Of a stretch of DNA of 53,281 bases, positions 24,332-51,574 are shown piece by piece. How positions within the stretch are numbered: position 1 is the first letter of the stretch; every line of letters begins with the position of its first letter. Source of the stretch: a virus. Under the pieces are notes generated by a model that had not been told where the DNA came from, did no database searches, and saw only the letters and a program-made list of their open reading frames with translations. The position numbers were made by a program, and so were the translations under genes. The stretch covers positions 1-53,281 of IMG/VR virus record IMGVR_UViG_3300047094_001628. One strand, 5' to 3'.

Positions 24332-24652
24332 ATGATATACGTATTTGATTTAGATAACACTTTATGTGACACAAAGAAAAAAGACGATGGTAATTGGGAT
24401 TACTTGAATGCTAAACCATTTATAGATAGAATTAAAATGGTAAATGAATTATATGATAATGGTAATCGTATTATTGTAGAAACCGCAAGAGGCTGTGTTT
24501 CAAAAAAGAATTGGTATGAACAAACATATCATCAGTTAGTTAGTTTTGGTTTAAAGTTTCATGAATTAAGAACTGGTGTTAAATTTAATGCAGATTTTTT
24601 CATCGATGATAAAGCAATAAATTCAAACGATTTTTTTAATGGGAATAATTAA
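24332..24652 (+). CDS. HAD-superfamily phosphatase, capsule-phosphatase-like
   Basis: A compact 106-residue HAD protein with VFDLDNTLCDT (4-14; nucleophile D6 and acid D8), ETARG near 50-54 as motif II and FFIDDKA near 90-96 as motif IV. The size and layout fit the EcbF/BcbF group of capsule-biosynthesis phosphatases. It would remove a phosphate from a sugar phosphate or related intermediate. Its end overlaps the CapK-like gene by 14 bases. The key residues are all present, unlike in the second HAD protein of this island at 30821-31417. Confidence 0.8.
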   Translation: MIYVFDLDNTLCDTKKKDDGNWDYLNAKPFIDRIKMVNELYDNGNRIIVETARGCVSKKNWYEQTYHQLVSFGLKFHELRTGVKFNADFFIDDKAINSNDFFNGNN

Positions 24653-27025: not shown

Positions 27026-28244
27026 TAAAATATCATTAATTGGTTTAGGTAAACTTGGTTTACCATTATTAGCCACATTTGGTAAGAATGGTCAAAAAAT
27101 AATTGGTATTGATGTTGATATAAATAAAATCAACACACTTAAGAATAATGAGTTACCCTTTTATGAGACAAATTTGAAAGAGTATCTGATAAGCGGTCGC
27201 GAAAACATTGAATATTCCGATAATTTCAAATACATAATTAACAAAACCGATATTACCATTATATTAGTTAATACCCCTTCAAATGAAAATGGGGAGTTTT
27301 CAAATAAGTACGTACATAATGCTGTAATTAGTATTTGTCAAGAATTAAAAAATTCTGACAAAGAGGACTTCTTATTTATCATAAGTTCAACAGTGATGCC
27401 CGGTAGTCATGATGACATTATTAAAATGATTGAGACTAATACAGGTAGGAAATTAAATAAGGGATTTGGTGTTGTATACATACCTGATTTAGTCGCTTTA
27501 GGTTGTGTTATTAAAGACTTTGAAAACCCTGATGTAATTATTATGGGTGAGAGTGATTCTAAGTACGGTGATATTGCGGAAAAAATATATTCTAAAATAT
27601 TAAAAAACAATCCACCAGTTGTTAGGATGTCCCTAATTGAAGGTGAAATAACTAAAATTAGTTTAAACACATTTGTCACAATGAAAATTAGTTTTGCTAA
27701 TTTTATTGGAAATATTTCAGAAAAATTAAATGTCAACCCAAATAACATAACTAAAGCACTTGGTTATGACAAGAGAATTTCACCATATTACATTAAAAGT
27801 GGTTTATCTTTTGGCGGAACATGTTTTCCTAGAGATACGTGGGCATTTATTAAGATGTCGGAGAATCTTGGATTAGACGCCGTTCAGGTTAAAGCAACTC
27901 AAAAAATAAATGAAAATCAAAATATAATTCTTTATGACAAGGTAAAAAAATATAAAGACAAAAAAATTGGGATATATGGGTTATCATTTAAACCAAATAC
28001 ATATGTAACCACAGAGTCTCCTGGTAATATTCTTTATGAAAAATTATTAAGTCAAGGGTACGATGCTGTATTCTATGATAAATTAATTTTATCACCTTAT
28101 ACAAATAGATTTAATTCTTTTATTGAAGATTCGGACATTATTGTAATCACACATGATGTCAATAATGAATTTGATAATTTTGATTTAAATAATAAAATAA
28201 TAATTAACCCTTGGAGAGTGAAAGTATGTACAGATATGATATAA
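27015..28244 (+). CDS. UDP-glucose/GDP-mannose dehydrogenase-family enzyme
   Basis: A 409-residue nucleotide-sugar dehydrogenase: NAD-binding GLGKLGLP at 10-17, GIDVD at 31-35, NTPSNENG at 86-93, STVMPGS at 125-131 and the catalytic cysteine C270 in SFGGTCFPRDTWAF. The C-terminal UDP-binding domain (about 312-405) is complete. Such enzymes oxidise C6 of UDP-glucose, UDP-HexNAc or GDP-mannose to a uronate with two NAD+. The usual PEFLREG block is PDLVALG here (157-163), so the second conserved acidic residue is Leu, which may reflect a different subfamily. It overlaps both neighbours. Confidence 0.88.
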   Translation: MNTNKISLIGLGKLGLPLLATFGKNGQKIIGIDVDINKINTLKNNELPFYETNLKEYLISGRENIEYSDNFKYIINKTDITIILVNTPSNENGEFSNKYVHNAVISICQELKNSDKEDFLFIISSTVMPGSHDDIIKMIETNTGRKLNKGFGVVYIPDLVALGCVIKDFENPDVIIMGESDSKYGDIAEKIYSKILKNNPPVVRMSLIEGEITKISLNTFVTMKISFANFIGNISEKLNVNPNNITKALGYDKRISPYYIKSGLSFGGTCFPRDTWAFIKMSENLGLDAVQVKATQKINENQNIILYDKVKKYKDKKIGIYGLSFKPNTYVTTESPGNILYEKLLSQGYDAVFYDKLILSPYTNRFNSFIEDSDIIVITHDVNNEFDNFDLNNKIIINPWRVKVCTDMI

Positions 28245-28834
28245 TAAACCATTTTATATCCAAACTAAATTTAAAAACATATTTAGAAATTGGTGTGTTT
28301 GATGGGGAGTGTATAGAAAAAGTAAATTGCCCAATCAAGGATGGGGTAGACCCATCTTTTGAAAAAGGATTATCTATTGGAGTTAATTACAAAATGACAT
28401 CTGATGACTTTTTTAATAATAATAGAGATAAAATTTATGATATTATTTTTATTGATGGATTACATCATTCTGAACAGGTAGATATTGATATTGAAAATTC
28501 TTTAAAACAAACCAATAATAATGGTATTGTGATTCTCCATGATTGTAATCCGCCAACATTAGAACATACTTTAATACCGAGAGTTCAACCTCAATGGAAT
28601 GGGGATGTTTACAAATCAATATTGAAATTTAGAAAAAATAACAAAAATCATGAGTATTTTACGGTTGATTGTGATTGGGGGGTTGGTGTTATTATGAAAA
28701 ATTACAAATCGAAAAATGAAGAAAAAAACGCGGATTTTGAAAAAGGTATTGAAAGTTGGGATTATTTTGATTTAAACAGAAACAATTTACTTAATTTGAT
28801 AACCACAGAAGAATTTCAAACATTGTACTTATGA
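28226..28834 (+). CDS. Class I SAM-dependent methyltransferase
   Basis: The chosen start is the ATG at 28226; a GGAGAG run 9 bases upstream, rare for this window, marks it, while the longer frame opens only with TTG. The 202-residue product has LEIGVFDGE (20-28) as SAM motif I, FIDGLHHSEQV (75-85) and VILHDCNPP (102-110). This matches Methyltransf_24-type enzymes and is distantly like the other methyltransferase at 22836-23558. It overlaps the dehydrogenase gene by 19 bases and the next gene by four. A sugar or lipid-linked glycan is a plausible methyl acceptor. Confidence 0.78.
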   Translation: MYRYDIINHFISKLNLKTYLEIGVFDGECIEKVNCPIKDGVDPSFEKGLSIGVNYKMTSDDFFNNNRDKIYDIIFIDGLHHSEQVDIDIENSLKQTNNNGIVILHDCNPPTLEHTLIPRVQPQWNGDVYKSILKFRKNNKNHEYFTVDCDWGVGVIMKNYKSKNEEKNADFEKGIESWDYFDLNRNNLLNLITTEEFQTLYL

Positions 28835-29697
28835 GTAGGCCAATCTTAAAAACTACTTGGAATGCGGGATTTTTTAGTTGTTGCACTGACATACTAAGAC
28901 AACTAACAAAATATCACCATAATAATAAAAAACTCCCAATTTTAGATTCATCAGAACAATGGGAGTTGTATAAAGATAACGGTATTGATGACGTTAGTAT
29001 TTTTTGGTTGAGATTAGTTGAATCTAAAACTGAAGGAGACATTACATCTGAGTTTTTTAATAGATTACCAAATTTTAATGAGTTTGAAAGTGAAAGTTTT
29101 TCAACTAATTGTTTATATCCTCAAGTATGTAATGAAGACCAATATAGTCCCTACAATTTAATAAATTTTAATTATACAAATAAAATTGTTGATGCATACT
29201 TTACACCATCAAACAAAGTTATTAAATTGTATGATGAACTGATTTTGAAATACAATATTGATTTAAGTAAAACAATATCGGTACTGTATAGAGGTAACGA
29301 TAAACATTTGGAAACAAATTTACCAAATTACGATGAGGTTCTACAAAAAACATTACAAGTTAAATCAGAATTTCCAAACTATAAAATTTTAATTCAATCC
29401 GATGAAATTGATTTTTGTAATTATATGACAGATAATATACCTGAAGTGATAGTAATAGAAGAAACAAAAAAAATTTCAAGGTCTGACACTGCAATACAAT
29501 ATACTTTATCTAAAGGAGAAAGATTACAAACCGCGTTAACCTTTTTATCTGTTATGATGATAGTTTCAAATAGCTCTCAAATAATTTTGAATAGTGGGAA
29601 TGTTGGTTTGTGGGTTTGTTTATTTAGAAAAAAGTTTGACGGTGTACATCAGTTTTTGAGTAGAATAAACAGTGATGATAGAACTTGGATACAATAA
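28831..29697 (+). CDS. Fucosyltransferase-like protein (O-FucT/NodZ-type pattern)
   Basis: A 288-residue protein whose second half has the outline of fucosyltransferases of the GT23/GT11/O-FucT type: VLYRGNDKHLETN (151-163) in place of the HxRRGD donor loop, ILIQSDE (186-192) and SQIILNSGNVGLWVCLF (249-265) near the end. The first half is less conserved and may bind the acceptor. If correct, GDP-fucose or a GDP-hexose would be the donor, which would fit the GDP-mannose epimerase-like gene immediately downstream. The match is by motif order only and is moderate. It overlaps the upstream methyltransferase by four bases. Confidence 0.55.
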   Translation: MSRPILKTTWNAGFFSCCTDILRQLTKYHHNNKKLPILDSSEQWELYKDNGIDDVSIFWLRLVESKTEGDITSEFFNRLPNFNEFESESFSTNCLYPQVCNEDQYSPYNLINFNYTNKIVDAYFTPSNKVIKLYDELILKYNIDLSKTISVLYRGNDKHLETNLPNYDEVLQKTLQVKSEFPNYKILIQSDEIDFCNYMTDNIPEVIVIEETKKISRSDTAIQYTLSKGERLQTALTFLSVMMIVSNSSQIILNSGNVGLWVCLFRKKFDGVHQFLSRINSDDRTWIQ

Positions 29698-29712
29698 ATT
29701 AATTGATAAATT

Positions 29713-30846
29713 ATGAAACAATTTAAAAATATATTAGTTTTAGGTGGGGGTGGATTCATAGGTGGACATTTAGCTAAACGACTGAAATCAGAAGGACACT
29801 ATGTACGTGTTGTTGATTTGAAAAAACACGAGTATTTCAAAGAAAATGAAATTTGTGATGAATTTCTTACTTATGATTTAAGAGATCCTCACAATGTAAA
29901 AGCCGTTATGAGGTTGGAAGTTAATAATGGTAACCATCCCCAACCATTTAAGTATCTTAAACAACCTTTTTCCAAAGAAATAGGGTTTGATGAAGTATAT
30001 CAATTGGCCGCTGATATGGGTGGGGCGGGATACATCTTTACAGGTGAACATGACGCGGATGTAATGCATAATTCGGCAATGATAAATCTTAATGTTGCTC
30101 ATGAATGTGTGAAAACAAAAGTTGGAAAATTGTTTTATTCATCCTCTGCTTGTATGTATCCTGAACATAACCAACTTAACCCTGACAATCCAAATTGTGA
30201 AGAATCATCGGCATATCCCGCAAATCCAGATTCAGAGTATGGATGGGAAAAATTATTTTCTGAAAGATTATTTCTCGCATTTGCACGAAATTATGGTTTG
30301 AATGTTAGAATTGCTAGATTTCACAATATCTTTGGTCCTCAAGGAACATGGTTTGGTGGTAAAGAAAAATCTCCAGCGGCCATGTGCAGGAAAGTCGCAG
30401 AAATAGATGACGCTACAAAAATAATAGGTCAAACGAGACCTGAATACGAAATTGAAGTGTGGGGGGATGGAAAACAAACACGTTCCTTCTTGTATGTTGA
30501 AGAATGTGTAGAAGCCGTTTTACGACTTATGGAAAGTGATTTCACAGGTCCAGTTAATATCGGATCGGAAGAAATGGTTTCAATAAATGAATTAGCTCAG
30601 ATCGCTATAGATATTTCTAGTAAAGATATAAAAATCACAAACATTGATGGTGATGAATTTGTAAACAAATACGGATTCAAGTGTCCAACTGGTGTGAGAG
30701 GTAGAAATTCAGACAATAAACTTTATAAAGAAAAAGTGGGATGGGAAAGTTCTATGACTTTAAGAGATGGTATGAAAAAAACTTACACTTGGATTCAAGA
30801 AATGGTAAACAAAAAAAAGTATGGCAAAAGTTCGAATAGCAATTGA
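29713..30846 (+). CDS. GDP-mannose 3,5-epimerase-like NAD-dependent epimerase
   Basis: A 377-residue extended SDR. It has GGGGFIGGHL (11-20) for NAD, LAADMGGAGYIF (98-109), NSAMINLNV (120-128), the catalytic cysteine in SSACMYPE (C147) and YGWEK with Y176 and K180. The MGG segment and the cysteine before YPE are characteristic of GDP-mannose 3,5-epimerase, which turns GDP-D-mannose into GDP-L-galactose and GDP-L-gulose. Length fits the family. The next gene starts 26 bases before its end. A supply of GDP-L-galactose for the island's transferases is a reasonable inference. Confidence 0.88.
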   Translation: MKQFKNILVLGGGGFIGGHLAKRLKSEGHYVRVVDLKKHEYFKENEICDEFLTYDLRDPHNVKAVMRLEVNNGNHPQPFKYLKQPFSKEIGFDEVYQLAADMGGAGYIFTGEHDADVMHNSAMINLNVAHECVKTKVGKLFYSSSACMYPEHNQLNPDNPNCEESSAYPANPDSEYGWEKLFSERLFLAFARNYGLNVRIARFHNIFGPQGTWFGGKEKSPAAMCRKVAEIDDATKIIGQTRPEYEIEVWGDGKQTRSFLYVEECVEAVLRLMESDFTGPVNIGSEEMVSINELAQIAIDISSKDIKITNIDGDEFVNKYGFKCPTGVRGRNSDNKLYKEKVGWESSMTLRDGMKKTYTWIQEMVNKKKYGKSSNSN

Positions 30847-32747: not shown

Positions 32748-33551
32748 ATGGAAAGTTTAGATATAAGTGTTATTTTACCTATAAAATCAGGATTGGTTAG
32801 AGATTTTGATGAATACTTTGACAAAGCGATTAAATCTCTACAAATACAAGAGGTTTCACTCAATGAGTTAATAATTGTTCATACTGAAGAAGAAACTTTA
32901 GTAGAAAAACTAAAAAATTATAATTTTGATAATTTGAATGTTAAATTATTACCTTACACTGAAACCCCAAATTTTCAATCACAACTTAATTATGGTATTG
33001 AAAATGCTCAGTCAACATATGTAAGTTTTCTTGAATTTGATGACGAGTATTCTAATGTTTGGTTTAGAAATGTCCAAAAGTATATCAAATTCTATCCTGA
33101 GGTGGATGTTTTTCTACCTATAGTTGTGGATGTCGATGATAAAGGAGTGTTTTTAGGGTTTACTAACGAAGCCACTTTTGCTGCTAATTTTTCTCAAGAA
33201 ATTGGGTATTTATCCAACGAAACACTACTACAGTATCAAAATTTTCAGACATCGGGTTGTGTAGTTAAAAAATCTAATTATTTGGAAATTGGAGGATTTA
33301 AACCCTCGATGAAATTGACATTTGTGTATGAATTTCTTTTAAGAATGACATATAATTCCGCGAAAATTATGACAATTCCAAGAATAGGATACAAGCACAC
33401 CACTATGAGAGAAGGGTCTATTTTTTGGAACTACAAAAATGGTACTACTACGATGACAGAAGATGAAGTCAAATTTTGGATTGCCGCGGCTAAAAAAGAA
33501 TTTTATTTCAAAGATGACAGAAACATAAAGTTTGATACACAAATGGGTTAA
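32748..33551 (+). CDS. GT2 family glycosyltransferase
   Basis: A 267-residue GT2-like enzyme starting LDISVILPIKSG, with ELIIVHTEEET at 40-50 and the metal-binding EFDDE at 96-100, and QTSGCVVKKSNYLEIGGF near 167-184, the acceptor-side loop common in this family. It is the last glycosyltransferase in the island and its final base overlaps the late sigma gene start (TAATG), so the sugar island and the late-regulator module share transcripts. Confidence 0.8.
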   Translation: MESLDISVILPIKSGLVRDFDEYFDKAIKSLQIQEVSLNELIIVHTEEETLVEKLKNYNFDNLNVKLLPYTETPNFQSQLNYGIENAQSTYVSFLEFDDEYSNVWFRNVQKYIKFYPEVDVFLPIVVDVDDKGVFLGFTNEATFAANFSQEIGYLSNETLLQYQNFQTSGCVVKKSNYLEIGGFKPSMKLTFVYEFLLRMTYNSAKIMTIPRIGYKHTTMREGSIFWNYKNGTTTMTEDEVKFWIAAAKKEFYFKDDRNIKFDTQMG

Positions 33552-34276
33552 TGTCCATCGAGAATATAGAAAATAAGAAACTTAAAAAGGTTTCAAAAGA
33601 AAATTATTTTGATCAGAGGGAGGAAGATGCTGTCCTTAAATTTCTTCAGACAGATTCGGCTGAAGAAAGAAATATCATCTATAATACCTATTTAAAGGGC
33701 CCCCTAGACAAAATGATATCCTCCATTATTAGGAGGTATAAATTGTATCGTAAAGATATGGATTTTATTGAAATCCATAATGATACTCATGGTTTTTTGA
33801 TGACTAAAGTTGAGAAATTCAAACCAGCTAAAAATAAAAAAGCATATTCTTACTTTGGGACAATATGTAAAAATTATCTGATGGGTCAAATCATAAAAGA
33901 CCAAAAAGACACCAATAGAAATGTGTCTTATGAAGATATTTCACCTACTTTGGAGAATAGACCAGATATGATTTATTATTTGGAAAATGAAAAAACAGAA
34001 GCCGATGACATCATACAAGTATTTATAACAGATCTTAAATTATATTTGGAATCGGGTAATTTATCAGAAAATGAAGTAAAGTTGGGGATATCACTTTTAG
34101 AACTATTCGAAAACTATAAAACAAACTTTGAAGGTACAGAAAATAACAAATACAATAAAAACATTATACTCCTCTCGATTAGAGAAATGACAAATCTTAA
34201 TACGAAAGAAATAAGATCGTCAATGAAAAAGTTTAAAAAGTTGTATTTAAGTGTATTAAACAAACTAATCGATTAA
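33551..34276 (+). CDS. T4 gp55-like late RNA polymerase sigma factor
   Basis: A 241-residue protein resembling gp55, the T4 late sigma factor. Residues 45-120 have the region-2 features of this group: a helix ending DKMISSIIRRY, the DFIEIHNDTHGFLMTKVEKFKP stretch (71-92; split by spacing) and AYSYFGTICKNYLMGQI (98-114), which in T4-like relatives is the conserved YF..IA.N.F..R segment. The C-terminal third may hold the short sigma region 4-like or clamp-binding part. gp55 directs host RNA polymerase to late promoters with the sliding clamp. A weak hairpin terminator follows the stop. Confidence 0.75.
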   Translation: MSIENIENKKLKKVSKENYFDQREEDAVLKFLQTDSAEERNIIYNTYLKGPLDKMISSIIRRYKLYRKDMDFIEIHNDTHGFLMTKVEKFKPAKNKKAYSYFGTICKNYLMGQIIKDQKDTNRNVSYEDISPTLENRPDMIYYLENEKTEADDIIQVFITDLKLYLESGNLSENEVKLGISLLELFENYKTNFEGTENNKYNKNIILLSIREMTNLNTKEIRSSMKKFKKLYLSVLNKLID

Positions 34277-38479: not shown

Positions 38480-39961
38480 ATGTCAATTTTCCGTTCCTAT
38501 TTTTCAAAAAATAATACCATACAAAAGACTAGTTTTGTAAATACGGGTAGAAACCCCGTAATGCAATTATTTTATGGTACGAGTCTTCAAACAACAGCCC
38601 CAAATGGGTTTACAAGGTTTATCTTTGATTTAGATCTTGATCCATTATTGGAAAACATAGCTTCAGGTGTTATATCCACAGGTTGTACATCCGCTATGAC
38701 CCACACCTTGAAGATGACCAACACTTCAAGTTTTGATATCGATCTTCTTAATACAGAAGCTTCCGATCAATCGATAAGAGCAACTTCATTTGACTTAATT
38801 CTTTTTAGAATACCAAAATCTTCTGGGTCAACAGGGAACACACAAACTTGGGATGAAGGTGTTGGATACGATTATGTGGATACACCCGCATTAGATAGTT
38901 GGGGTTACAATAAGAATTTTTCTACAAGACCATCAAATTGGTATCAAACAACTACAATTACAAATTGGTCTTTGCCTGGCATTTACAGTAACGACAATAC
39001 TAGTACGGGTAATACAGGATTAAATTATTCTGCTTTGACTATTGTTGATACTCAACACTTTGAATTTGGAAACGAAGATATCAATTTTGATATGACCCAC
39101 GAAATAAATTCGATTATAACGGGTTCTACGACAGGTTCTACGGGTTGGGGGATTGCATACGTCCCTCAAATAGAAAACATCACAGGACTCACCGTAACGT
39201 ATTCTGTGGGGTTTTTTACAAGACATACACAAACATTCTATCAACCATTCTTACAAACCACATTTGATGATTTGATTGAAGACAATCGAGTCACCTTTGT
39301 ACAAGGTAGAACAAACAAATTGTACTTGTATATTTTTGCGAATGGTGATTATTTAAATTTAGATCAAAATCCAATTGTAGATATTTTAGACCCTGATGAT
39401 GAACCCATAGCAGGTTATACAGGTTTGACTACTTGTTTGGTAACCAAGGGTGTTTATGAGGTTGTAATTCCACCTTTATCAGGTTACAATACTCCTTGTC
39501 AATTTACAGATAAATGGACAAATATTATCGCGCAAGGTAATAATCTTGATGATGTTGAAAACCAATTTGTTTTACAATCCTCCTCGGCATTTTATCAGAT
39601 TGGTAGTGTGTCTAAAGACCCATTATTGTATGGGTTTGATTTTAGTGGTATCAAACAAAATGAAAAAATTGTAAATACCGATATACGAAAAGTGATGGTG
39701 GTAATAAAACAAGCATATTCAAGTGCATATGTTTTACAAAACATAGAAGCTCAGTACCGAGTATATGTAAGAGAAGGACAAACAGAAGTAGAAGTTCAAG
39801 GGTGGACACCTATAAACCGAACACCTAACGAGTATTATTTTATTTTCGACACAAGAGATAAAATACCCAATGAATATTACGTTGACATCAAAGTGAATAC
39901 TTCTGGACAAAAAGATACTTATAAAAGACAATTAACTTTTCAAATAGTAAACCAAAAATGA
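38480..39961 (+). CDS. Putative virion structural protein, 493 aa
   Basis: A 493-residue, beta-rich protein. It contains WDEGVGYDYVDTPALDSWG near residues 125-143 and repeated Thr/Ser/Gly-rich strands, then a C-terminal part (about 390-493) with an immunoglobulin-like look. I recognise a general virion-protein style, with the early domain similar in layout to beta-sandwich structural proteins, but no named family. An ATG three bases earlier is out of frame; MSIFRSYF is the likely start. It overlaps the next gene by four bases. Confidence 0.6.
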   Translation: MSIFRSYFSKNNTIQKTSFVNTGRNPVMQLFYGTSLQTTAPNGFTRFIFDLDLDPLLENIASGVISTGCTSAMTHTLKMTNTSSFDIDLLNTEASDQSIRATSFDLILFRIPKSSGSTGNTQTWDEGVGYDYVDTPALDSWGYNKNFSTRPSNWYQTTTITNWSLPGIYSNDNTSTGNTGLNYSALTIVDTQHFEFGNEDINFDMTHEINSIITGSTTGSTGWGIAYVPQIENITGLTVTYSVGFFTRHTQTFYQPFLQTTFDDLIEDNRVTFVQGRTNKLYLYIFANGDYLNLDQNPIVDILDPDDEPIAGYTGLTTCLVTKGVYEVVIPPLSGYNTPCQFTDKWTNIIAQGNNLDDVENQFVLQSSSAFYQIGSVSKDPLLYGFDFSGIKQNEKIVNTDIRKVMVVIKQAYSSAYVLQNIEAQYRVYVREGQTEVEVQGWTPINRTPNEYYFIFDTRDKIPNEYYVDIKVNTSGQKDTYKRQLTFQIVNQK

Positions 39962-41865: not shown

Positions 41866-41868
41866 AAA

Positions 41869-41896
41869 AAAAGGGGACAATTTCTTGTCCCCTTTT
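41869..41896 (-). terminator. Strong intrinsic terminator, probably bidirectional
   Basis: AAAAGGGGACAA (41869-41880) pairs perfectly with TTGTCCCCTTTT (41885-41896) around a four-base loop. Read on the minus strand it follows the major capsid gene and runs into a long T stretch, so it ends that transcript; on the plus strand it follows the 79-residue gene. Confidence 0.85.
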
Positions 41897-41914
41897 CAAT
41901 TACCATTGAGAAGA

Positions 41915-43777
41915 TTAACGTAATTCTCTCAAATCGAAAGTACGGATACCGTCACAAGTCACACGACCATAGAAACGGTTGTTAACCATTTTCTTAGCGT
42001 ATCTTGTCATTATACCTTTGATAGGTGTAAAGTTGAACGGATTGTACATAGTAGGCGTCAATTGTAGAGGTACATACGGAGCGTAAATGTAACCTGTGTC
42101 TAACAATGAAGTACCTTTGTGACCGATGATAAGTTGGTTTGGTGGGAAATATGGATCTCTGTAAACCTGATATCTGCCGGATAGTGTACCAATTCTCTCA
42201 ATACCCATGTTGTATTGATCTTGCTCAGGAGCAGCGTTTGATACGTGGAAATATTCCAAATCATCAAAGATTGCTGAAATCTCAGAAGAACAAACGATCC
42301 AGTTAGCACCACCTCTCAATGTCGACTTATGGATTTGTGCCGACAATTGGTTGATAGCGGTAATAAGTGTTTGGTTCCAATCTTTCTGAGTATAAGGAGT
42401 AGTTCCTGTAGAAGCCAATCTCTTCCAACCGTTGTAATCCCATCTCAAGTTCCAAGCAGCACCTTTTCTCAAATCTCTCAAAATCTCTCTGTCGATTTCT
42501 GCGGCAACTTGTTCAGAAAGAAGAGCTGTAAGCTCAGCTTCTGCATCAATGTTGTGGAACGCTGAAACGTCTTGAGCAAGTTCAGGAGACCATTGTGCTC
42601 TCAATTTACGTTCTGTTACAGATACTGTAACTGATTCTAAATCGAAAGAAACCTCACCGATTTGATCTTCGAATTCAAGTTCTTTATAAACTCTGTAAAT
42701 CGCGATAAAGGCGTTGTTGGTTGTAGCTGTTGAAGCAAATGTTGATCCTGTGTAACCATCAGGTGTTGTTTGTCCACAAGAAACACATACTGGTTGTTGT
42801 AAATCAACCTCCAAATAAATAATACCATTCGCATCACAAACATTATTGTATGCACCGCCCGAATTGTTACCAATCGGCCAAGTAGTGTTGGTTTGTGAAC
42901 CGTATTGAACGATACCTTTACCGTACTTTTGAGTTACCACTCTGAAAAGGTAAGGATTACCATTACCAGGAGCTCGACTTGAAGTTGTTGCGTTACCATA
43001 AGCTCCGAAAATGTTCAAACCTGAAAGGAATTCTTCGGTATCCATGGTATTACCATTTGGTCCGATCAATTGACCAGCACCAGCGTTTGAGAATCCACTC
43101 ATCGCTAAAATTACTTTACGATAATCAGATGATGTGTATGCTGAGGGGACTAAAAATCCACTAGCATCCCAAGCAACTGTCATTGTTGTAGCAGTTGTGG
43201 CTGTCCATTTACCTTTGGAGTAGTCAAAAAGACCTGGAGGGTTTAATGTTGCCTCATCACCTTCATAAAATAAATCGTAAAGATCTTTTTGGTAATAAGG
43301 GTTATAAGTACCTGTGCTGTCCGCTGCAGTATAACCTGCATTTTGATTTCCTGGATAGTTACCAGGTGAACCAATTGGAGCATAGTGGTCACCACTTTGA
43401 CCTAACCATCCCAAATCATTTGGTGATGTTCCACCCGAATAACCTTGAATTTTAGGAACAAAGTAGAACAATTTACCGATAGGTAAGTTCATTGCTTGTA
43501 CCGATACGATATCGTTTGCCAAAAGTTTTGAGAAAACCCTTCTTACGATAGGAAATACAACGGTTTCAAAAGAACCACTGTCAGAAGTCGATGATGCTTC
43601 GTTTATCAAGAATGACGCTTGGTTCTCATATAACTGAGCAACGTTTTCTTTCATATGACCTTTTAGTCCTTCTAAGAACCCAAGTTTGTCCCACTTGTTG
43701 ATTGTATCTTCTTTGATAACTTTAAGGTGTTTTAACCCAATGTTACCAACAAGACCGCTTTCTAATAATGCACCCAT
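41915..43777 (-). CDS. Major capsid protein, T4 gp23-like
   Basis: A 620-residue protein with T4 gp23 features: an N-terminal helical propeptide (1-60), FPIVRRVFSKLLANDIVSVQ (75-94), MNLPIGKLFYFVPKI (96-110) and a C-terminal RFYGRVTCDGIRTFDLREL. Codons are noticeably more G+C-rich and regular than in its neighbours, as expected for a very highly expressed gene. The sequence LINEASS at 57-63 gives an INE|A site fitting the T4 prohead-protease preference for cutting after Glu, which would release a mature chain of about 560 residues. It is downstream of the scaffold gene after 20 bases and is followed by a strong terminator. Confidence 0.93.
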   Translation of the reverse strand: MGALLESGLVGNIGLKHLKVIKEDTINKWDKLGFLEGLKGHMKENVAQLYENQASFLINEASSTSDSGSFETVVFPIVRRVFSKLLANDIVSVQAMNLPIGKLFYFVPKIQGYSGGTSPNDLGWLGQSGDHYAPIGSPGNYPGNQNAGYTAADSTGTYNPYYQKDLYDLFYEGDEATLNPPGLFDYSKGKWTATTATTMTVAWDASGFLVPSAYTSSDYRKVILAMSGFSNAGAGQLIGPNGNTMDTEEFLSGLNIFGAYGNATTSSRAPGNGNPYLFRVVTQKYGKGIVQYGSQTNTTWPIGNNSGGAYNNVCDANGIIYLEVDLQQPVCVSCGQTTPDGYTGSTFASTATTNNAFIAIYRVYKELEFEDQIGEVSFDLESVTVSVTERKLRAQWSPELAQDVSAFHNIDAEAELTALLSEQVAAEIDREILRDLRKGAAWNLRWDYNGWKRLASTGTTPYTQKDWNQTLITAINQLSAQIHKSTLRGGANWIVCSSEISAIFDDLEYFHVSNAAPEQDQYNMGIERIGTLSGRYQVYRDPYFPPNQLIIGHKGTSLLDTGYIYAPYVPLQLTPTMYNPFNFTPIKGIMTRYAKKMVNNRFYGRVTCDGIRTFDLRELR

Positions 43778-43797: not shown

Positions 43798-45390
43798 TTA
43801 TTTGTTTATTTTTTGCATGATATCCTTCATTCTCAAGAACTGAGGATTTTCATAAGTTTTTGATTCGATTAAATTTTGTGAAGAACCTGAACTATGTGTT
43901 TTTTCGATTTTTTCCATAGATTCAGTCACAACATTTTTCGAGGAATTTGTTAATTCGTTTTTAATTGAATTGTAAAGATTTTTGGATTCTTTGATTGATT
44001 CAACATCATCAAACCTTCTAAGAATGTTAATTTTTTCTTGTTTTGAAGTAGGATGTTCTGTGAACAATCTAGTTGCATAAGCCAAATTGGAATTGAAAAC
44101 AGCAACTTCATTAAGTTTTTCTCTGAAAACATTTAAAGCTTTTTGATACTCAACATTCTTCTGTCTTAGAGATTGAACTTCTTCACTCACTGCCGAATTC
44201 GGGATTACTTTAGCTTTTGGTAAACCTTTTCTCAGTCCGTAATTTCTAGTTCCGTTACTTAGTGTTCTAGCCGCTTCTTTAGTTTCACCTTTTGAGAAAG
44301 CTCTGGCGATTCTGTTTTCCACAGCAGAAATGTCATGTTTCTTACCTTCCTTATATTCAAATTTCTTGGGAGAAAGATTCATTCCAGTACCTTTAGCTTT
44401 TCCTGTAGGTTGTATTTTTCCAATACCCTCTTTTGTTTCAGTTTTTTTAGCTTTAGGGGCTGTTTTTTCACCTGGTCTATGGAAAGGACTGCGTTTTTTA
44501 TCTTTACCAGTTTCAACTTTTTCTTTTTCTTTTGGTTTTGTAGTTGTAGATTCTTTGGTTTCGGCTTTTGAACCCAATGGTTTACCAGCTTTCCAATTTG
44601 AAAACATTATTGGTTTCATACCACTTTTTGATTCATGCATAGATTCCTCCATATCTTCTTCATCGATTTCGTCATCTGTGTCTTCCTCATCCATAGAAAT
44701 TTCATACACAACCTCATCCATTTCTTCATCCATTTCTTCATCCATTTCTTCATCCATTTCTTCATCCATTTCCTCATCCATTTCTTCTGAGAAAATATCA
44801 TTCATGATTTGGTCCATTTGGGAATCGGACATTTTTTCGGTAATAGATTCGTTTGTTGAGATGATATATTCTACATCTTCTTCTTCGTCATCAAGGTGAA
44901 TTTTATCACCTTCTTTTTTCACGATAATTCTATCAGATGGACCCATTTTTTTGAAAACACTTAATACGTCTTCCATCGATGCGTCATCAGGGATTTCTAC
45001 AACATCTTCATCTTCAATGTCGATATCTAATTCGTCGGAATCCATATCCATTTCATCTTCAGAGTCCATATCCATTTCATCTTCAGAGTCCATATCCATA
45101 TCATCTTCAGAGTCCATATCCATATCATCTTCAGAATCCATATCCATATCATCTTCAGAATCCATATCCATATCATCTTCAGAATCCATATCAATTTCAT
45201 CTTCAGAATCTATTTCAGGTTCAGCTTGTTCTTTTAGTTTATTTTTAGTCTTTAACGACTCTTTTACTAGCTCAGAGATTTCTTCCTTCATTGTTGAAGC
45301 AAGTATTCCTTTTGCGTTTTCAGTTACAACATCTTCTAGATTTTTCATCTGAAGAAGAGCTTCTTCTACTAATGACTTTTTGTCTGCCAT
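43798..45390 (-). CDS. Prohead core scaffold protein with acidic repeats (gp22-like position)
   Basis: A 530-residue, highly charged protein between protease and capsid genes, the place of gp22 in T4. Residues 61-118 are about seven 8-residue units of the type MDSEDDMD; residues 201-225 are about six MDEE units; a basic Lys/Thr/Pro-rich region (270-350) and a helical coiled coil (400-530) follow. Such an acid-rich, helical composition suits an internal scaffold that is digested during head maturation. No conserved catalytic motif is seen. It has its own TATTTATA motif upstream and a terminator separates it from the preceding gene. Confidence 0.75.
   Translation of the reverse strand: MADKKSLVEEALLQMKNLEDVVTENAKGILASTMKEEISELVKESLKTKNKLKEQAEPEIDSEDEIDMDSEDDMDMDSEDDMDMDSEDDMDMDSEDDMDMDSEDEMDMDSEDEMDMDSDELDIDIEDEDVVEIPDDASMEDVLSVFKKMGPSDRIIVKKEGDKIHLDDEEEDVEYIISTNESITEKMSDSQMDQIMNDIFSEEMDEEMDEEMDEEMDEEMDEEMDEVVYEISMDEEDTDDEIDEEDMEESMHESKSGMKPIMFSNWKAGKPLGSKAETKESTTTKPKEKEKVETGKDKKRSPFHRPGEKTAPKAKKTETKEGIGKIQPTGKAKGTGMNLSPKKFEYKEGKKHDISAVENRIARAFSKGETKEAARTLSNGTRNYGLRKGLPKAKVIPNSAVSEEVQSLRQKNVEYQKALNVFREKLNEVAVFNSNLAYATRLFTEHPTSKQEKINILRRFDDVESIKESKNLYNSIKNELTNSSKNVVTESMEKIEKTHSSGSSQNLIESKTYENPQFLRMKDIMQKINK
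44711..44787 (-). repeat. Tandem 12-bp coding repeats in the scaffold gene
   Basis: About six tandem 12-base units (plus-strand core TCATCCATTTCT) encoding repeated MDEE. Perfect or near-perfect copies imply recent slippage. Confidence 0.85.
45036..45208 (-). repeat. Tandem 24-bp coding repeats in the scaffold gene
   Basis: About seven 24-base units encoding MDSED(D/E)MD. Copies differ at a few third positions, so the array is somewhat older than the 12-base array. Confidence 0.85.
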
Positions 45391-45409
45391 AAAATATTAA
45401 ATTTTTCCA

Positions 45410-45417
45410 TATAAATA
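45410..45417 (-). promoter_or_regulatory. TATTTATA late-promoter candidate
   Basis: TATTTATA on the minus strand, 20 bases before the scaffold ATG and just downstream of a terminator, as expected for a new transcription start. Confidence 0.45.
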
Positions 45418-45480
45418 TATCCATAGCGCAAAAAATATTGATTTTTAAAATTTTATTTGTAAAAAAATTAAACAAAAAAA

Positions 45481-45502
45481 AACCCCACTCTTTGGTGGGG
45501 TT
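45481..45502 (-). terminator. Intrinsic terminator upstream of the scaffold-capsid unit
   Basis: AACCCCAC (45481-45488) pairs with GTGGGGTT (45495-45502) around a six-base loop; on the minus strand the stem is followed by a long T run. It ends the transcript carrying the protease and the 70-residue gene. Confidence 0.85.
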
Positions 45503-45507
45503 CATTT

Positions 45508-45720
45508 TTACTCGATCACTTCATCGATTTTACTCTCAATCACTGACGTTATTCGCCAATCATGTTGAAAGCCTTGATACTTTCCAGTTACTTTTGCCTC
45601 AACATCAGTAACTGAAATTGCTCGTACCAATTTCATTTCAGTGATTTTTTTGATCTTACCTGAATTTTCATCAGGTAGATCGTATTGTACTTTACATACA
45701 AAATATTTAGAATCTTCCAT
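45508..45720 (-). CDS. DUF4494-like small protein, 70 aa
   Basis: A 70-residue protein with YFVCKVQYDLPDENSGKIKK (6-25), then TEMKLVRAISVTDVEAKVT (27-45), the pattern of DUF4494, a small domain common in Bacteroidota and their phages. Function unknown. It sits between protease and scaffold, three bases after the protease gene, and is followed by a terminator. It is one of the clues to the host phylum. Confidence 0.6.
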   Translation of the reverse strand: MEDSKYFVCKVQYDLPDENSGKIKKITEMKLVRAISVTDVEAKVTGKYQGFQHDWRITSVIESKIDEVIE

Positions 45721-45723: not shown

Positions 45724-46455
45724 TTATTTTCTTAAAAAGTTATTCAATTTATTCATCAAGTCAATAGACCGATTCATAGGATTTGTGTTATCAGTGGATT
45801 CTGACGATATCTGCCTTAATTTTTTTTCTTCTTCAATATTTTCATCGAATGAATGTCGATCGTCAATGTTTGAGAACAAATAAGCTCCTGGTGTGGAAGG
45901 TGAAGAAACTAGGTCAAAACATATTAATTCAAAATCCTTTTGAACTTCGTTTTGCTCTCCAACTTTTTTCAGAGACCCAACACCCCTAGATGATATTCCT
46001 AAAGTTACTCCTTGTCTTAGTAAATTTGCGGCTTGATCTCCCTTGGTTGATACAATCCCCCTCTCATGAAATCCAGGTGACGTTAAAAGTTTTAGTTTTC
46101 CAAGTAACATTTGACCTTCCCACCATAAGTCACTAATTATGTGAGACACTCGGTCTAAATCAATCAATGAAGACTCTGGATGGTTTAATTCAGATAATGC
46201 TACTCCTTTCTTAATTAATTTTTTGTAATTCTCAGCTTCTCTTTTAAGAATTTGTTCTGGATAAATTCTACCATTTCTATTTGGTGTATTATATTTTTGT
46301 AATACAGCATAGAATTCAAAAGGTTTCGAATAATCTAATTGAGTTTTTTGTTCTTCCAAAACTTTTATGTTTCTGTGATCTGTGGCAGACACAAATCCTG
46401 CGTCCATCTCAATCAAGATACCTTTTCCCACTTCGTTTGGTCCTAATATTTTCAT
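45724..46455 (-). CDS. Prohead core protease, T4 gp21-like
   Basis: A 243-residue serine protease of the herpesvirus/T4-type prohead family. The catalytic region shows ELNHPESS with H92 and GISSRG with S155 or S156, and the typical early segment YNTPNRNGRIYP (55-66). It should cut scaffold and capsid propeptides after Glu. Its gene order before scaffold and capsid follows T4. Two overlapping TATTTAT motifs precede the ATG. Confidence 0.9.
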   Translation of the reverse strand: MKILGPNEVGKGILIEMDAGFVSATDHRNIKVLEEQKTQLDYSKPFEFYAVLQKYNTPNRNGRIYPEQILKREAENYKKLIKKGVALSELNHPESSLIDLDRVSHIISDLWWEGQMLLGKLKLLTSPGFHERGIVSTKGDQAANLLRQGVTLGISSRGVGSLKKVGEQNEVQKDFELICFDLVSSPSTPGAYLFSNIDDRHSFDENIEEEKKLRQISSESTDNTNPMNRSIDLMNKLNNFLRK

Positions 46456-46475: not shown

Positions 46476-46925
46476 TTAGCTAGTTTCGATTGTTTTTGTT
46501 TTTTTTGTTTTTTCAAAATCGAAATAAATATTTTGAGAAAAATTATGGGAATTTATGAAAGAAGTTATATCTTGCAAATGTTTTTTTAAGGTCAGAGATT
46601 TGAACTCAACATTTTTATTTACAAAAAAAGTTATTTCTAAATTCATAAAACTTTTTTTACCCATAACAAGACCACTAGTTCTAAGATCTAAATCACAAAT
46701 GAATGTAGATTGAAATAAATTAAGATCTAAAAAATCACCTATGGTTTCTTTGATTTCTCTATTTAATATGTTTATGACTCTCGACCAATTTTCAACATTT
46801 TTTTTGGGTGTTACCCAACTTTGGATATTCAAATACAATGATTTAAATGTTCTTGAATCCACCGTACCGTACGTACTTTTTAATCTTGTAAATCCATTTA
46901 ATTTACACGTTTTGCCTTTTTTCAT
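46476..46925 (-). CDS. Hypothetical protein in the head module, 149 aa
   Basis: A 149-residue basic protein starting KKGKTCKLNGFTRLKSTYG, with mixed alpha/beta character and FMNLEITFFVNKNVEF near 91-106. No family recognised. It lies upstream of the protease, where T4 keeps small core proteins gp67 and gp68, but it is not acidic or coiled like those. A head-assembly role is suggested only by position. Confidence 0.5.
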   Translation of the reverse strand: MKKGKTCKLNGFTRLKSTYGTVDSRTFKSLYLNIQSWVTPKKNVENWSRVINILNREIKETIGDFLDLNLFQSTFICDLDLRTSGLVMGKKSFMNLEITFFVNKNVEFKSLTLKKHLQDITSFINSHNFSQNIYFDFEKTKKTKTIETS

Positions 46926-46970
46926 TAATTAACTTCATAACAATGGTTTATTTTTTTTCAAAAAAATAGT

Positions 46971-46980
46971 TATAATATTG
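46971..46980 (+). promoter_or_regulatory. Possible promoter of the bS21 gene
   Basis: TATAAT (46971-46976) overlaps TAATATTG (46973-46980), one base from the Bacteroidota -7 element TAnnTTTG. It lies about 45 bases upstream of the bS21 start. No clear upstream element is seen. It is unlike the TATTTAT motif of the structural genes. Confidence 0.3.
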
Positions 46981-47022
46981 ATATAAATCAAATTTTTTCC
47001 ATTATTAATATAATTAGTTGAT

Positions 47023-47214
47023 ATGATAATAATAAAAATTAATGGTACGTCGAATCTCGACAAAAGCCTCAAATTATTGAAAGGAAAAATAATCAGAACC
47101 AAACAGAATGAAATTCTTTTATCAAGATTATCTCATGAAAGTAAATCTCAAAAAAGAAGAAAGGAAATTCTAAAAGCTCAGTTTATACAAAAAAAACGTA
47201 GTTCTGAGGGGTAA
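47023..47214 (+). CDS. rpsU: Ribosomal protein bS21 homologue
   Basis: A 63-residue basic protein with the bS21 pattern: a short strand IIIKINGTSNLDKSLKLLKG (2-21), then a helix containing RTKQNEILLSRL and a C-terminal helix SQKRRKEILKAQFIQKKR (42-59). It is closest in style to the short Bacteroidota form. bS21 binds the small subunit beside the 16S rRNA 3' end; in Flavobacterium it helps hide the anti-Shine-Dalgarno sequence. It is alone on the plus strand inside the minus-strand head module, ends two bases before the convergent gene and has no Shine-Dalgarno site. It may alter ribosome specificity for phage messages; this is inference. Confidence 0.85.
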   Translation: MIIIKINGTSNLDKSLKLLKGKIIRTKQNEILLSRLSHESKSQKRRKEILKAQFIQKKRSSEG

Positions 47215-47216: not shown

Positions 47217-47918
47217 TTACAAACTCTCGTATAGGTTTTTTAACCTAACAAAGTTAATCCTATCAAAAGTTTCTTTCTCAATGGTACTGATGGTTTCTTG
47301 AATTTTTGAAGAAATGTCTTCAGTATTTTCTTTTGAGATGTCTAGTAATTTATTGATAGTATTGGTTTTGACTTCGTCATATTTTTTTTGAAGAGTTTCT
47401 TCACTCTCTGTCAAAATACTCATCAACTCTTTTTGAGTATTTTCATCTAAATTCGAAATATAATTAGACGCGGTACTATTTGCGATCTTCAGAATAGAAT
47501 TAATGGGTAAGTTGATATTTTCTTTCTTTTCTGTATCTTCTGAAAGTTGATTAATTAACCTTTTTTTAGAGTGTGCACACTCCACCAAATTTGTAAAATC
47601 AGGGTAAATTAAATTATCAATATCCTCGTATATGTTATCAGTTTTGATTTCTTTAACCCAAAATTCGGCCAATTTTTTCTTTACCGATTTTTTATTTTCT
47701 TCAATCTGTTTTACAGATTCTTGAATAAAAATTTCAGCAGTGTCCTTATCTAAAGACCTTGTGTTTTTTAATGATTGATAGTGATAAAATACAGAAGTTA
47801 AATCTTTATTTTCAAGAACCAATTTCTTGAATTTTTTAATCTCCTGTTCGAAAATACCATTTTGGTATGACGAGATTAGATGATCTTCTATTGATGAAAA
47901 AAGTTCTCCGAATTTCAT
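47217..47918 (-). CDS. Hypothetical coiled-coil protein between portal and protease, 233 aa
   Basis: A 233-residue, helical, charged protein (Glu, Lys and Asn rich) with long coiled-coil stretches at 40-100 and 160-220. Twelve bases separate it from the portal gene. In T4 the interval between portal and protease codes for prohead core proteins gp67 and gp68; a similar core role is plausible from the helical, acidic nature and position. No family recognised. Confidence 0.55.
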   Translation of the reverse strand: MKFGELFSSIEDHLISSYQNGIFEQEIKKFKKLVLENKDLTSVFYHYQSLKNTRSLDKDTAEIFIQESVKQIEENKKSVKKKLAEFWVKEIKTDNIYEDIDNLIYPDFTNLVECAHSKKRLINQLSEDTEKKENINLPINSILKIANSTASNYISNLDENTQKELMSILTESEETLQKKYDEVKTNTINKLLDISKENTEDISSKIQETISTIEKETFDRINFVRLKNLYESL

Positions 47919-47930: not shown

Positions 47931-49775
47931 TTAAATATTATCGTCCGACAATTTATCCAACACTTGACTTATTGATTGTAATATTTTTTCTCCTTTATCA
48001 AAATCAATCTCACTTTTTTCTTCGATTTCCAATCTTTCTAGAATAATATTTGTGGACTTCTTTTTATTTTCAGGAGCTAATACTGGTTCTTCAGGAGGAG
48101 GAAGTGTTTCACCACCAGGTCCAGGTGCCATACCACCTAATTCACCACCCATAGGCGGCAAAGGTTCCGCACCACTAGGTGGAACAGATCCACTCGTGGC
48201 AGTTTCACCACTTAAAACTGATTTACTGTACAGTTTATCAATATTATCAAATATACCCGTTCTATTAATAACGTTAGGAGTATTTGCCAACTCAGCGGCA
48301 ACTGCGATCTCCATTCTTTGTTGGTTAAGATCCAATTTGATTTCATCGTCAGAGAAACCAAGTATGTGTTTTTTAGCCCAAGCATTAGATACAGGTGCAA
48401 TTCCCTCAATTTTTGTAACAGCATCTCGATACAATAACATTTTTTCTTTCCAAACTTCCACAGTAAGTAAATCAGCTTGTTTTGATGGATTGGTCAAAGA
48501 CAATTGAAATGAACCTAGTTCATCCTCAAACCCTAAAAGAAATAAATGAATTATTGCGATTTTATTTAGTTCAGCAATCATACATTTTTGAATACGATTG
48601 ATCGTTCTAGCAAAACGAATATCTTGAAGTGATAAATTTTTCCCATCTCCGACGGGTTCTTCAAATCCTAAAAATGCTTTAGGAATTCTTAAAGCTGTTA
48701 GAAGTTTCTTCTGAATGTACTCGATATCAGCAATTTCAGAAAGATTTTGAGCCCCTGCTAAGGTATCAATAGGTGTTGGTGCGGCAGGGTCTCTAACAGG
48801 AATAAAGAAATCTTGGTCAACCGCCATTTGATTGAATCTCATATCGACATTACCCGTTTTAGGATCAGCTATTTGGTCTTTTTTGAATTGTTGTGCAAAT
48901 CTTTGTACATATGGATACACATCAGCGTCATCCATATTCCCGACATAAACTTTGAAAACTCTTCTCTCAGGTGCTCGTGAGGTCCTATAAACTAACATCG
49001 CATCCTCAGCTAACACCAATTGTTTCCAAATTCTTCTTGCCTTCTCAGTCATCGATGTACCATATGGTAACTTACGATCATCTCCTAACAATCTAAAATG
49101 TGCAATTTCCCAACTATTAAAATCAAGTTGTTTGTTTTTCCAAGTGAATGTCAAACTTTTCACATCTGGTCTTGATGATTGTGCAGCCCCAAAACCTGAG
49201 GTTGCTCTACCTTTCATACCAACCTCGATCCTTTCTATCTCTATATTTGGTAATTGTAGACACCCAACAACACCTCTTTCAGGATCTAATTTCAAAAACA
49301 CAAAATTATCACCATACTTAGCGGTATTACGCGTCCACATAGGTAAATTTGTATTGATATCTAAAGCATTATTAAACAAGTCAGCTAAAATTGATTTAAT
49401 CCTCGGTGAGTCCGAATAGATTTGTAACATAAATCCATTTTCATCGACCGTAGTTGATTCTTCAGCGTATGTGTCTAATGCTGAGGCAATTTCAGGTGTG
49501 TATTCCATACTTTCAAAATCATAATATGAAGCCAATCTTGTTGGTTCATAATATACCGCTTGATTGTATAGATTATTTTCAACTTTAGCCCATTGACTTA
49601 CAAGATAATATGTTTGTTGAGCTTGAAGTTTTTGTTTTTCATATTCGTCTTTATTTTGGGTCTTGAGTAATTCTTTTTTATCAAAAGTATATGTTGGTAA
49701 ATCTTGACCCAATAAAGAATTTGGCCCTAAACTTTGAGATAATCTCTGCCAAATCGTTAAATTTTTATTTTCCAT
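47931..49775 (-). CDS. Portal protein, T4 gp20-like
   Basis: I use the ATG at 49775 (MENKNLTIWQRLSQ), not a TTG three codons earlier. The 614-residue product has T4-type portal signs: ASYYDFESMEYTPEIASALD (65-84), a central ARRIWKQLVLAEDAMLVYR then RAPERRVFKVYVGNM, and ALRIPKAFLGFEEPVGDG followed by LSLQDIRFARTINRIQ. The C-terminal 100 residues are Gly/Pro-rich then acidic. The portal ring is the head vertex through which DNA enters. It follows the terminase gene as in T4 but without sheath and tube genes between. Confidence 0.9.
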   Translation of the reverse strand: MENKNLTIWQRLSQSLGPNSLLGQDLPTYTFDKKELLKTQNKDEYEKQKLQAQQTYYLVSQWAKVENNLYNQAVYYEPTRLASYYDFESMEYTPEIASALDTYAEESTTVDENGFMLQIYSDSPRIKSILADLFNNALDINTNLPMWTRNTAKYGDNFVFLKLDPERGVVGCLQLPNIEIERIEVGMKGRATSGFGAAQSSRPDVKSLTFTWKNKQLDFNSWEIAHFRLLGDDRKLPYGTSMTEKARRIWKQLVLAEDAMLVYRTSRAPERRVFKVYVGNMDDADVYPYVQRFAQQFKKDQIADPKTGNVDMRFNQMAVDQDFFIPVRDPAAPTPIDTLAGAQNLSEIADIEYIQKKLLTALRIPKAFLGFEEPVGDGKNLSLQDIRFARTINRIQKCMIAELNKIAIIHLFLLGFEDELGSFQLSLTNPSKQADLLTVEVWKEKMLLYRDAVTKIEGIAPVSNAWAKKHILGFSDDEIKLDLNQQRMEIAVAAELANTPNVINRTGIFDNIDKLYSKSVLSGETATSGSVPPSGAEPLPPMGGELGGMAPGPGGETLPPPEEPVLAPENKKKSTNIILERLEIEEKSEIDFDKGEKILQSISQVLDKLSDDNI

Positions 49776-49783
49776 AATTAACA

Positions 49784-49790
49784 ATAAATA
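49784..49790 (-). promoter_or_regulatory. TATTTAT late-promoter candidate
   Basis: TATTTAT on the minus strand, eight bases before the portal ATG at 49775. Confidence 0.4.
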
Positions 49791-49804: not shown

Positions 49805-51574
49805 TCAACGCTTACCACTTCCAAACAACCATGAATATTCTTTATAATCGTTTAACGAAGGTTGATTTCTAAACGCAGGATTTTCTCTATAATTTGTATT
49901 TGGTAATGCGGGATTAAAATGTGTTGTCGCTGGTTGTTCGTACGATTTAACCTCCCATGATTCTAGTAAAACCTTTGCTTGTTGTGAAACTTTTTGTAAC
50001 TGAGCAAATGAATAATCCGCAACATAGACCGCCATAGCCAAAGACATAATAAGGTCATCATGTTGTCCTTTCATATGGTCTGGTCTACCATTCACATAAA
50101 CAAAAGTGTTCATTTCGTTGACTAAACGAATAGAATGTATTTTCAAACCATGTCGAAAATATTCTTCTAACGCAGCAATAATTTGAACTCTTTTATTGTT
50201 GAAATTAATACCAGGTATTTTATCCTGCATTTTTGGGTCAAATTTCCATTTATTCGCAATGTCCATACCATCCACATAAAGTTCTTTATAACCAAGTTCT
50301 TGGAGTTTTCTTGCTGTAGAAACTCCCATTCCACCTGTAATATCAACTACTACAAAGGCTTTATACATAGTTGCCCATTTATAAACTATGTCAGCTAAAT
50401 TATCAGGTGGGAGTTTTCCCAAATACTCAACAGCTTGTTCTTTATCGTCAAAATCAAAAATCTGGAAAGTTGAAAAGTCTTCACTATCACCTCTCGAAAC
50501 GTCTACACCCATAATGTATCTGTGACCTATGATAGGTTCGTTCCACAACCATAATCCACCACTAACCATTTTATTTAATGGGTCTTTAACATCGTTTTCT
50601 AATATTTTTTGGACCAAGTTTGAATCGAATACGTTATCTCCTGACCCCAAAAAATTACACTCTAATTCTTGAGCGACTTTTCTTTTGTCATATTTTAATT
50701 TTTTGACCATTTTTTCAAACCAATTCGAGGTTGGTTTGAATCCATCATCTATAAGTCTTTGTATTTCGTCATAATCTCTATCCGCAGGTAATTTTTCTGA
50801 AACATCAACTATTTCAGGGTTTGGATATTCATCTCTGTTCAAATAAAAATGTATTAAATCATCTACTTTGATAAATTGTAAATCTTTTGTGTATCGTGGA
50901 TCTCTCCACCAAAACATTTCTGATATTTTGAAATCGTTAATACCTCTTATTGATTGATCGTAAATTTCGTAATAAATTGGATCATACCCGTTTGGTGTTG
51001 ATATTACAATAACTTTACCACCTGTGGATAATGAGGCCATACAAGCCGCCCAAAAATCACTATCGGCCTCGATATACGCCGCCTCGTCGAATATTAGAAT
51101 TGTAGGAGTATAACCACGTAACGCATCCTTCGATGTTGCAACCGCTTTTACTTCACATCCATTCGATATTTTAAAGTGTCTTTGCGAGTTTTTTTCTGCA
51201 CTATATGTTATACCAACCCAACTAGGCCATTGGTCAATAAATCCTCTAACTTTATTTGCAAATTCAACAGCCGTATCTAACTTATTTGCAATACACAAAA
51301 CCTTTTCAGGTTTGTTCTTGAGAGCAAAAGCTAATTTTTTACTTATCCAAGCCGCAGTTACTGTTGATACCCCAGCTTGTCTATATTTTTTGGCAATGTT
51401 TTCGTTATACTCTTCGTAATCTTTGATAAGTTTTGCTTGATCAGGAAATAACTCTAATGGAACATATTTTGATTGAGTATTGTCGTAAGTTTGTAAATAC
51501 GTTCTTAAAGCATATTCAGTATTCCTTACACATTTAGTGTACTCAAGTAATAATTGTTCTTTTGAAAAACCCAT
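49805..51574 (-). CDS. terL: Terminase large subunit, T4 gp17-like
   Basis: A 589-residue packaging motor. The ATPase part has a variant Walker A, KYRQAGVST (63-71), with its lysine at the front of the loop as in many phage terminases, Walker B ILIFDEAAY (159-167; D163, E164) and the coupling motif VISTPNG (190-196). The nuclease part has GVDVSRGDSEDF (356-367; D358), VVVDITGG (408-415; D411) and GQHDDLIMSLA (503-513; D506 or D507), the three acidic positions of the RNase H fold. It drives DNA into the prohead and cuts the concatemer. The small subunit is not recognised nearby. Confidence 0.93.
   Translation of the reverse strand: MGFSKEQLLLEYTKCVRNTEYALRTYLQTYDNTQSKYVPLELFPDQAKLIKDYEEYNENIAKKYRQAGVSTVTAAWISKKLAFALKNKPEKVLCIANKLDTAVEFANKVRGFIDQWPSWVGITYSAEKNSQRHFKISNGCEVKAVATSKDALRGYTPTILIFDEAAYIEADSDFWAACMASLSTGGKVIVISTPNGYDPIYYEIYDQSIRGINDFKISEMFWWRDPRYTKDLQFIKVDDLIHFYLNRDEYPNPEIVDVSEKLPADRDYDEIQRLIDDGFKPTSNWFEKMVKKLKYDKRKVAQELECNFLGSGDNVFDSNLVQKILENDVKDPLNKMVSGGLWLWNEPIIGHRYIMGVDVSRGDSEDFSTFQIFDFDDKEQAVEYLGKLPPDNLADIVYKWATMYKAFVVVDITGGMGVSTARKLQELGYKELYVDGMDIANKWKFDPKMQDKIPGINFNNKRVQIIAALEEYFRHGLKIHSIRLVNEMNTFVYVNGRPDHMKGQHDDLIMSLAMAVYVADYSFAQLQKVSQQAKVLLESWEVKSYEQPATTHFNPALPNTNYRENPAFRNQPSLNDYKEYSWLFGSGKR

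Follow-up and report, generated by a model that had tools for sequence, protein, structure and literature searches.

The anti-Shine-Dalgarno (anti-SD) sequence is free in E. coli ribosomes, but not in those of Bacteroidota. In Flavobacterium johnsoniae, residue Y54 of the ribosomal protein bS21 stacks on A1534 and helps to hold the 3' tail of the 16S rRNA, and the gene for bS21, rpsU, carries an extended Shine-Dalgarno (SD) sequence that ties bS21 synthesis to bS21-free ribosomes in a feedback loop; Y54A or loss of the C-terminus leads to more rpsU translation (PMC9976891). Genes for bS21 are also found in phages; the role of phage bS21 is taken up by McNutt et al. 2023 in speculation only (PMC9976891). 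Chen et al. 2022 described 47 freshwater Bacteroidetes phages with bS21, myoviruses with large genomes of about 290-330 kb, reported late transcription and proposed ribosome substitution (PMC9723584). Further, the bS21 of the Pelagibacter phage HTVC008M enters E. coli 70S ribosomes, with in vitro translation strongly impaired (Mizuno et al. 2019, PMC6375957), and both Mizuno 2019 (PMC6375957) and Chen 2022 (PMC9723584) have hypothesised that phage bS21 biases translation towards phage messages. Phage ribosomal proteins may specialise ribosomes or may simply stand in for the host copies, a question to which Bacteroidota are well suited, as their bS21 gates both the anti-SD sequence and its own synthesis.

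Here, we analyse a phage bS21 gene in a 53,281-base virus record (IMGVR_UViG_3300047094_001628), the whole of which is referred to as the window and the ends of which are not known. Within this 53 kb, Pfam and PHROG profiles recognise T4-like head genes (Table 1). The bS21 gene, which runs from ATG through 63 codons to TAA, is the lone plus-strand gene inside the minus-strand head block of TerL, portal, protease and MCP.

Table 1. Features of the bS21 locus and the surrounding head module (positions in the window)
Feature	Position	Strand	Remarks
Major capsid protein (MCP), gp23-like	41915..43777	-	PF07068 E = 2.4e-72
Acidic 530-aa protein, scaffold position	43798..45390	-	Named from its position; 24-base tandem repeats; no Pfam/PHROG family match
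DUF4494 protein	45508..45720	-	PF14902 E = 3.4e-10
Prohead protease	45724..46455	-	PF03420 E = 2.4e-23
Protein B, 149 aa, conserved hypothetical	46476..46925	-	Between bS21 and prohead protease; retained where bS21 is absent
Divergent intergenic region, protein B (-) / bS21 (+)	46926..47022		bS21 leader without Shine-Dalgarno; duplex with 16S tail -2.3 kcal/mol
Protein B promoter, Bacteroidota-type (putative)	46961..46992	-	-33 TTTG (46989-46992), 20-base spacer, -7 TATTTTTT (46961-46968); read from sequence; kept in homologous loci
Phage bS21	47023..47214	+	63 aa, pI 10.9, 17 K+R, 5 D+E; F54 variant, KPS hinge lost
Protein A, 233 aa, conserved hypothetical	47217..47918	-	Tail to tail with bS21; retained where bS21 is absent
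Portal protein, T4 gp20-like	47931..49784	-	PF07230 E = 1.9e-72
Terminase large subunit (TerL)	49805..51574	-	PF03237 E = 3.3e-14; phrog_2 E = 4.9e-43

Several other features of the window were recorded alongside the locus. The tandem repeats of the scaffold-position protein (45008-45247) encode acidic DSEDDMDM-like repeats, and hairpins followed by T-runs at 41866-41914 and 45391-45507 resemble, by eye, intrinsic terminators of the head module. Sugar-related genes occupy 966-4613 and 24639-30846, including a GlcNAc-type glycosyltransferase, an aminotransferase, a UDP-glucose/GDP-mannose dehydrogenase and an NAD-dependent epimerase. The 241-aa protein at 33551-34276 looks by eye like a phage sigma factor, but at E <= 0.01 neither Pfam nor PHROG yields a match. 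No tRNA was found in the window. For protein B the predicted model is good (pLDDT 90), its sole significant match being an uncharacterised myovirus protein.

Judged by its sequence, the ORF at 47023-47214 is a real gene and a homologue of bS21. When the window protein is searched alone, it scores 18.8 bits against PF01165 (E = 1.3e-3; Pfam cut-off 27 bits, passed by five of 16 relatives) and has no PHROG match, a weak single-sequence result that stems from the divergence of the window clade described below. The same protein in phmmer gives just two PDB matches at E <= 1, both of them bS21 and colinear over residues 1-60, namely 7jil of F. johnsoniae (E = 0.01) and 9i5v (E = 0.018). With a profile built from the window clade only, these matches reach 1.6e-4 and 9e-4, respectively, and a profile of 16 phage homologues retrieves bS21 chains only (best 1.3e-19). 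In hhalign, the window clade aligns with host bS21 at 96.6% (E = 6e-10, 62 gap-free columns) versus 0.2% for a neighbouring gene used as negative control. The predicted model gives this small, basic protein two helices (residues 9-37 and 41-62, pLDDT 88) separated by a short hinge; Foldseek returned no significant match for it, as can happen for so small a helical protein. The preliminary description had called the 63-residue product bS21, and the profile, profile-profile and PDB evidence agree with that identification; as regards the HMM search, it is the clade and phage-family profiles that match bS21, while the window sequence alone stays under the cut-off. A chance ORF is ruled out by conservation in relatives, purifying selection and synteny.

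Scans of IMG/VR yielded 68 distinct phage bS21 proteins, and tblastn against 50,697 records of cultured phages gave no match. Nearly all of the 43 loci compared share the window's gene order, and a single locus, L036, has none of the window's neighbours. On this 98.7-kb contig the phage bS21 (8001-8198) lies on a very long branch, and the head-module neighbours of the window were not detected nearby. The bS21 tree, built on 64 columns and of limited strength in its finer branching, places all of its 29 distinct phage proteins in a single group separate from the 44 host sequences (97/87). It gives no support to a recent capture from a host, within the limits that so few columns set.

Inside the phage group, the window clade (L002-L011 and L025-L029) stands on a branch of 1.46 (100/100). 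Its bS21 is 42-50% identical to that of other phage clades, compared with mostly 61-75% among those other clades, and the identities of TerL, protease and MCP are similar throughout the same comparisons. Tajima relative-rate tests with a phage outgroup are significant for bS21 in most comparisons (p down to 0.0006), less consistently so with F. johnsoniae as outgroup, and for none of seven neighbour genes. In most informative pairs dN/dS within the clade is 0.02-0.13, with dS often saturated. The window clade is thus a fast-evolving branch in bS21, with no such shift in the seven neighbour genes, and its bS21 is now under purifying selection. Identity between the bS21 of the window and that of F. 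johnsoniae is 33%.

Residues in contact with the ribosome were taken from McNutt 2023 and Chen 2022. Position 54 is aromatic in all 68 distinct phage proteins (Y in 57, F in eight, H in three) and is Y in 80/80 Flavobacterium hosts. The window protein has F54, which retains the aromatic ring and loses the hydroxyl; F54 occurs in the seven distinct proteins of the window clade and in one other phage protein. Since the aromatic residue is kept, an anti-SD-sequestered state like that of the host protein is predicted, and phage bS21 probably maintains sequestration of the tail. The KPSV hinge of 77/80 Flavobacterium hosts reads ESKS in the window; the change of K40 to S is present in all seven distinct window-clade proteins and in no other of the 68. 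Among the phage proteins, 61/68 have K40 but no more than 16 have P41; the KPS motif is common in bS21 without being defining. In helix 1, most phage proteins depart from the host at R21 (S/G, 64/68), F23 (V/I, 66/68) and T28 (Q, 59/68). The window clade differs from the host at these three positions, in the hinge and by Y54F, and retains the length, the helix pattern, K17, K20, K22, R46, A52 and the aromatic residue 54. This clade, with Tyr-to-Phe at a key contact and a lost hinge, constitutes a natural variant series.

The start regions of the window are poor in SD sequences, as the preliminary description had noticed: none of 47 forms a duplex of <= -7 kcal/mol with the anti-SD tail, compared with 15.9% of random genic 24-mers. 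The leaders of the bS21 genes themselves separate host from phage. An extended SD is present in 80/80 Flavobacterium rpsU leaders, which form duplexes of -19.6 to -24.7 kcal/mol with the 16S tail (80 genomes, 15 distinct leaders), and in 0/59 distinct phage bS21 leaders, for which the duplexes range from -5.1 to +0.8 kcal/mol (Mann-Whitney p = 3e-9, with Flavobacterium as a proxy for the host of the window). By the sequence of its leader, the phage copy lies outside the host feedback circuit. We found no paper on this contrast in a literature survey of incomplete coverage, and the contrast lends itself to direct testing with a reporter system that is already established.

Upstream of protein B, a putative promoter consists of TTTG, about 20 bases and TAnnTTTT, together with a conserved AATAAAC. 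The motif is found in 24/32 homologous loci (L184-L263) versus 1.8 expected from shuffles, also where bS21 is absent, and its -33 element falls within the bS21 leader. For bS21 itself, a host-type promoter near the ATG was suspected in some relatives; the count of ten of 65 versus 3.5 expected is a weak excess and the window has no match, and leaderless expression of bS21 is consequently not proposed. Separately, TATTTATA is found 16-27 bases before start codons five times (0.2 expected), upstream of the genes at 4683-11267, 14106-14918, 38480-39961, 43798-45390 and 45724-46455, and is possibly a late promoter similar to TATAAATA of T4. The SD-less genes, the Bacteroidota-type promoter of protein B and the nearest solved bS21, that of Flavobacterium, point indirectly to a Bacteroidota host, and the window is likely a Bacteroidota phage, in line with the initial assignment.

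Not all relatives carry the gene. Between intact A and B genes, bS21 is absent from L213/L214 and from L242/L247/L257/L258/L260 (the L202 sequence is partial). The latter lineage is nested among bS21 carriers (98/85, 100/100), and the gene has therefore been secondarily lost there, at least once. A bS21 was not found elsewhere on the contigs of the two lineages without it, which are fragments of up to 105 kb and 51 kb. It follows that bS21 is not essential, and, as A and B are kept where it is lost, that it is optional cargo in a core module whose two neighbours do not need it. Functional coupling of bS21 with these neighbours is weakened as a candidate by the same observation.

With moderate confidence, we favour the reading that phage bS21 takes the place of the host protein, leaves the tail sequestered and evades autoregulation by the host. 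The phage protein would enter host 30S subunits and displace the host copy, and its C-terminal helix with aromatic residue 54 would keep the 16S rRNA 3' tail sequestered, such that ribosomes would remain in the form that can translate messages without an SD, to which the phage genes of the window belong. Because its leader lacks an extended SD, phage bS21 could be produced on ribosomes already replete with bS21, outside the host feedback loop, with a presumed benefit late in infection. The bS21 homology, the two-helix model, the aromatic residue 54, the leader contrast, the SD-less genes and purifying selection are consistent with this reading, as are the entry of pelagiphage bS21 into E. coli ribosomes (PMC6375957), the transcription of bS21 in related phages at the same time as their late structural genes (PMC9723584) and the F. 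johnsoniae feedback loop built on Y54 and the SD of rpsU (PMC9976891). Against it, the window clade, at 33% identity to F. johnsoniae and with KPS and Y54 lost, may bind poorly or differently, and the lack of SD at bS21 may be a default rather than a selected feature, since all genes of this phage are SD-less; moreover, Flavobacterium is a proxy host, and relatives that have lost the gene show that it is not essential.

For host rpsU, we infer a further consequence, which is tentative and which we regard as somewhat unlikely. SD-less phage bS21 would fill the 30S subunits and the anti-SD tail would be bound; bS21-free ribosomes would then vanish, translation of host rpsU would stop and the ribosome pool would drift to phage bS21 without any protease. 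If true, such a passive takeover would turn around the view, published as speculation, of autoregulation as a protection for the host (PMC9976891), and the F54, KPS-less clade would represent either an adaptation to another host or a means of evading a host counter-measure.

A rival and rather doubtful explanation is ribosome specialisation, as put forward by Chen 2022 and in the preliminary description; here the diverged helix 1 would alter message initiation in favour of late phage messages. Positions 21, 23 and 28, which are non-host in nearly all phage proteins, belong to a region placed over the mRNA path (PMC9723584); yet no message feature was found that such ribosomes could read, the phage starts being Bacteroidota-like and SD-less, and the residue contacting the anti-SD tail is retained. 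The scarcity of SD sequences, from which specialisation had been argued, carries no special weight here, as SD-less starts are the ordinary condition in Bacteroidota. Specialisation is thus possible and no stronger than the simpler replacement with escape from autoregulation. That incorporation of phage bS21 would chiefly harm host translation is improbable: E. coli ribosomes with viral bS21 made about 5% of protein in vitro (PMC6375957), but this test was cross-phylum, and bS21 lies among capsid genes with which related copies are co-expressed, when the phage needs much translation (PMC9723584). Least probable is a window-clade protein that is no longer ribosomal and has another function, such as a part in the virion or in RNA-binding regulation, for although the long, well-supported branch, rate-test significance confined to bS21 among the genes compared, the clade-specific K40 to S change and the sub-threshold Pfam score would fit such a role, the conserved length, helix pattern and key residues listed above, a clade profile that still ranks bS21 first and the ordinary appearance of the proteins of other phage clades stand against it.

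The window and its bS21 can be set against the described systems as follows. The gene arrangement was already published in 2022 (PMC9723584), and the observation adds a member to a known kind; what the present analysis contributes is the faster evolution of one clade, the difference between host and phage leaders and the secondary loss of the gene. In common with the phages of Chen et al., the window has a bS21 strand-opposed to TerL, portal, prohead protease and MCP and flanked by two hypothetical genes, a similar GC content (31.6% versus 31.0-33.7%), an aromatic residue 54 and diverged helix-1 positions 21, 23 and 28 (PMC9723584). These authors name a co-transcribed gene 'bS21_CN' (PMC9723584), of which either A or B would be the counterpart. 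The window clade departs from those phages in its F54 (a single case in PMC9723584), in the loss of the KPS hinge and in its faster evolution; that study does not deal with the leader SD, with autoregulation or with promoters (PMC9723584). The bS21 of HTVC008M is likewise phage-encoded, but belongs to another phage and another host phylum (PMC6375957). With host bS21 of F. johnsoniae (7jil; PMC9976891), the window protein shares colinearity over 60 residues, the two-helix structure and the aromatic residue 54, whereas host rpsU is under autoregulation and carries an extended SD (PMC9976891), and the phage gene, whose product is 33% identical, is without an SD.
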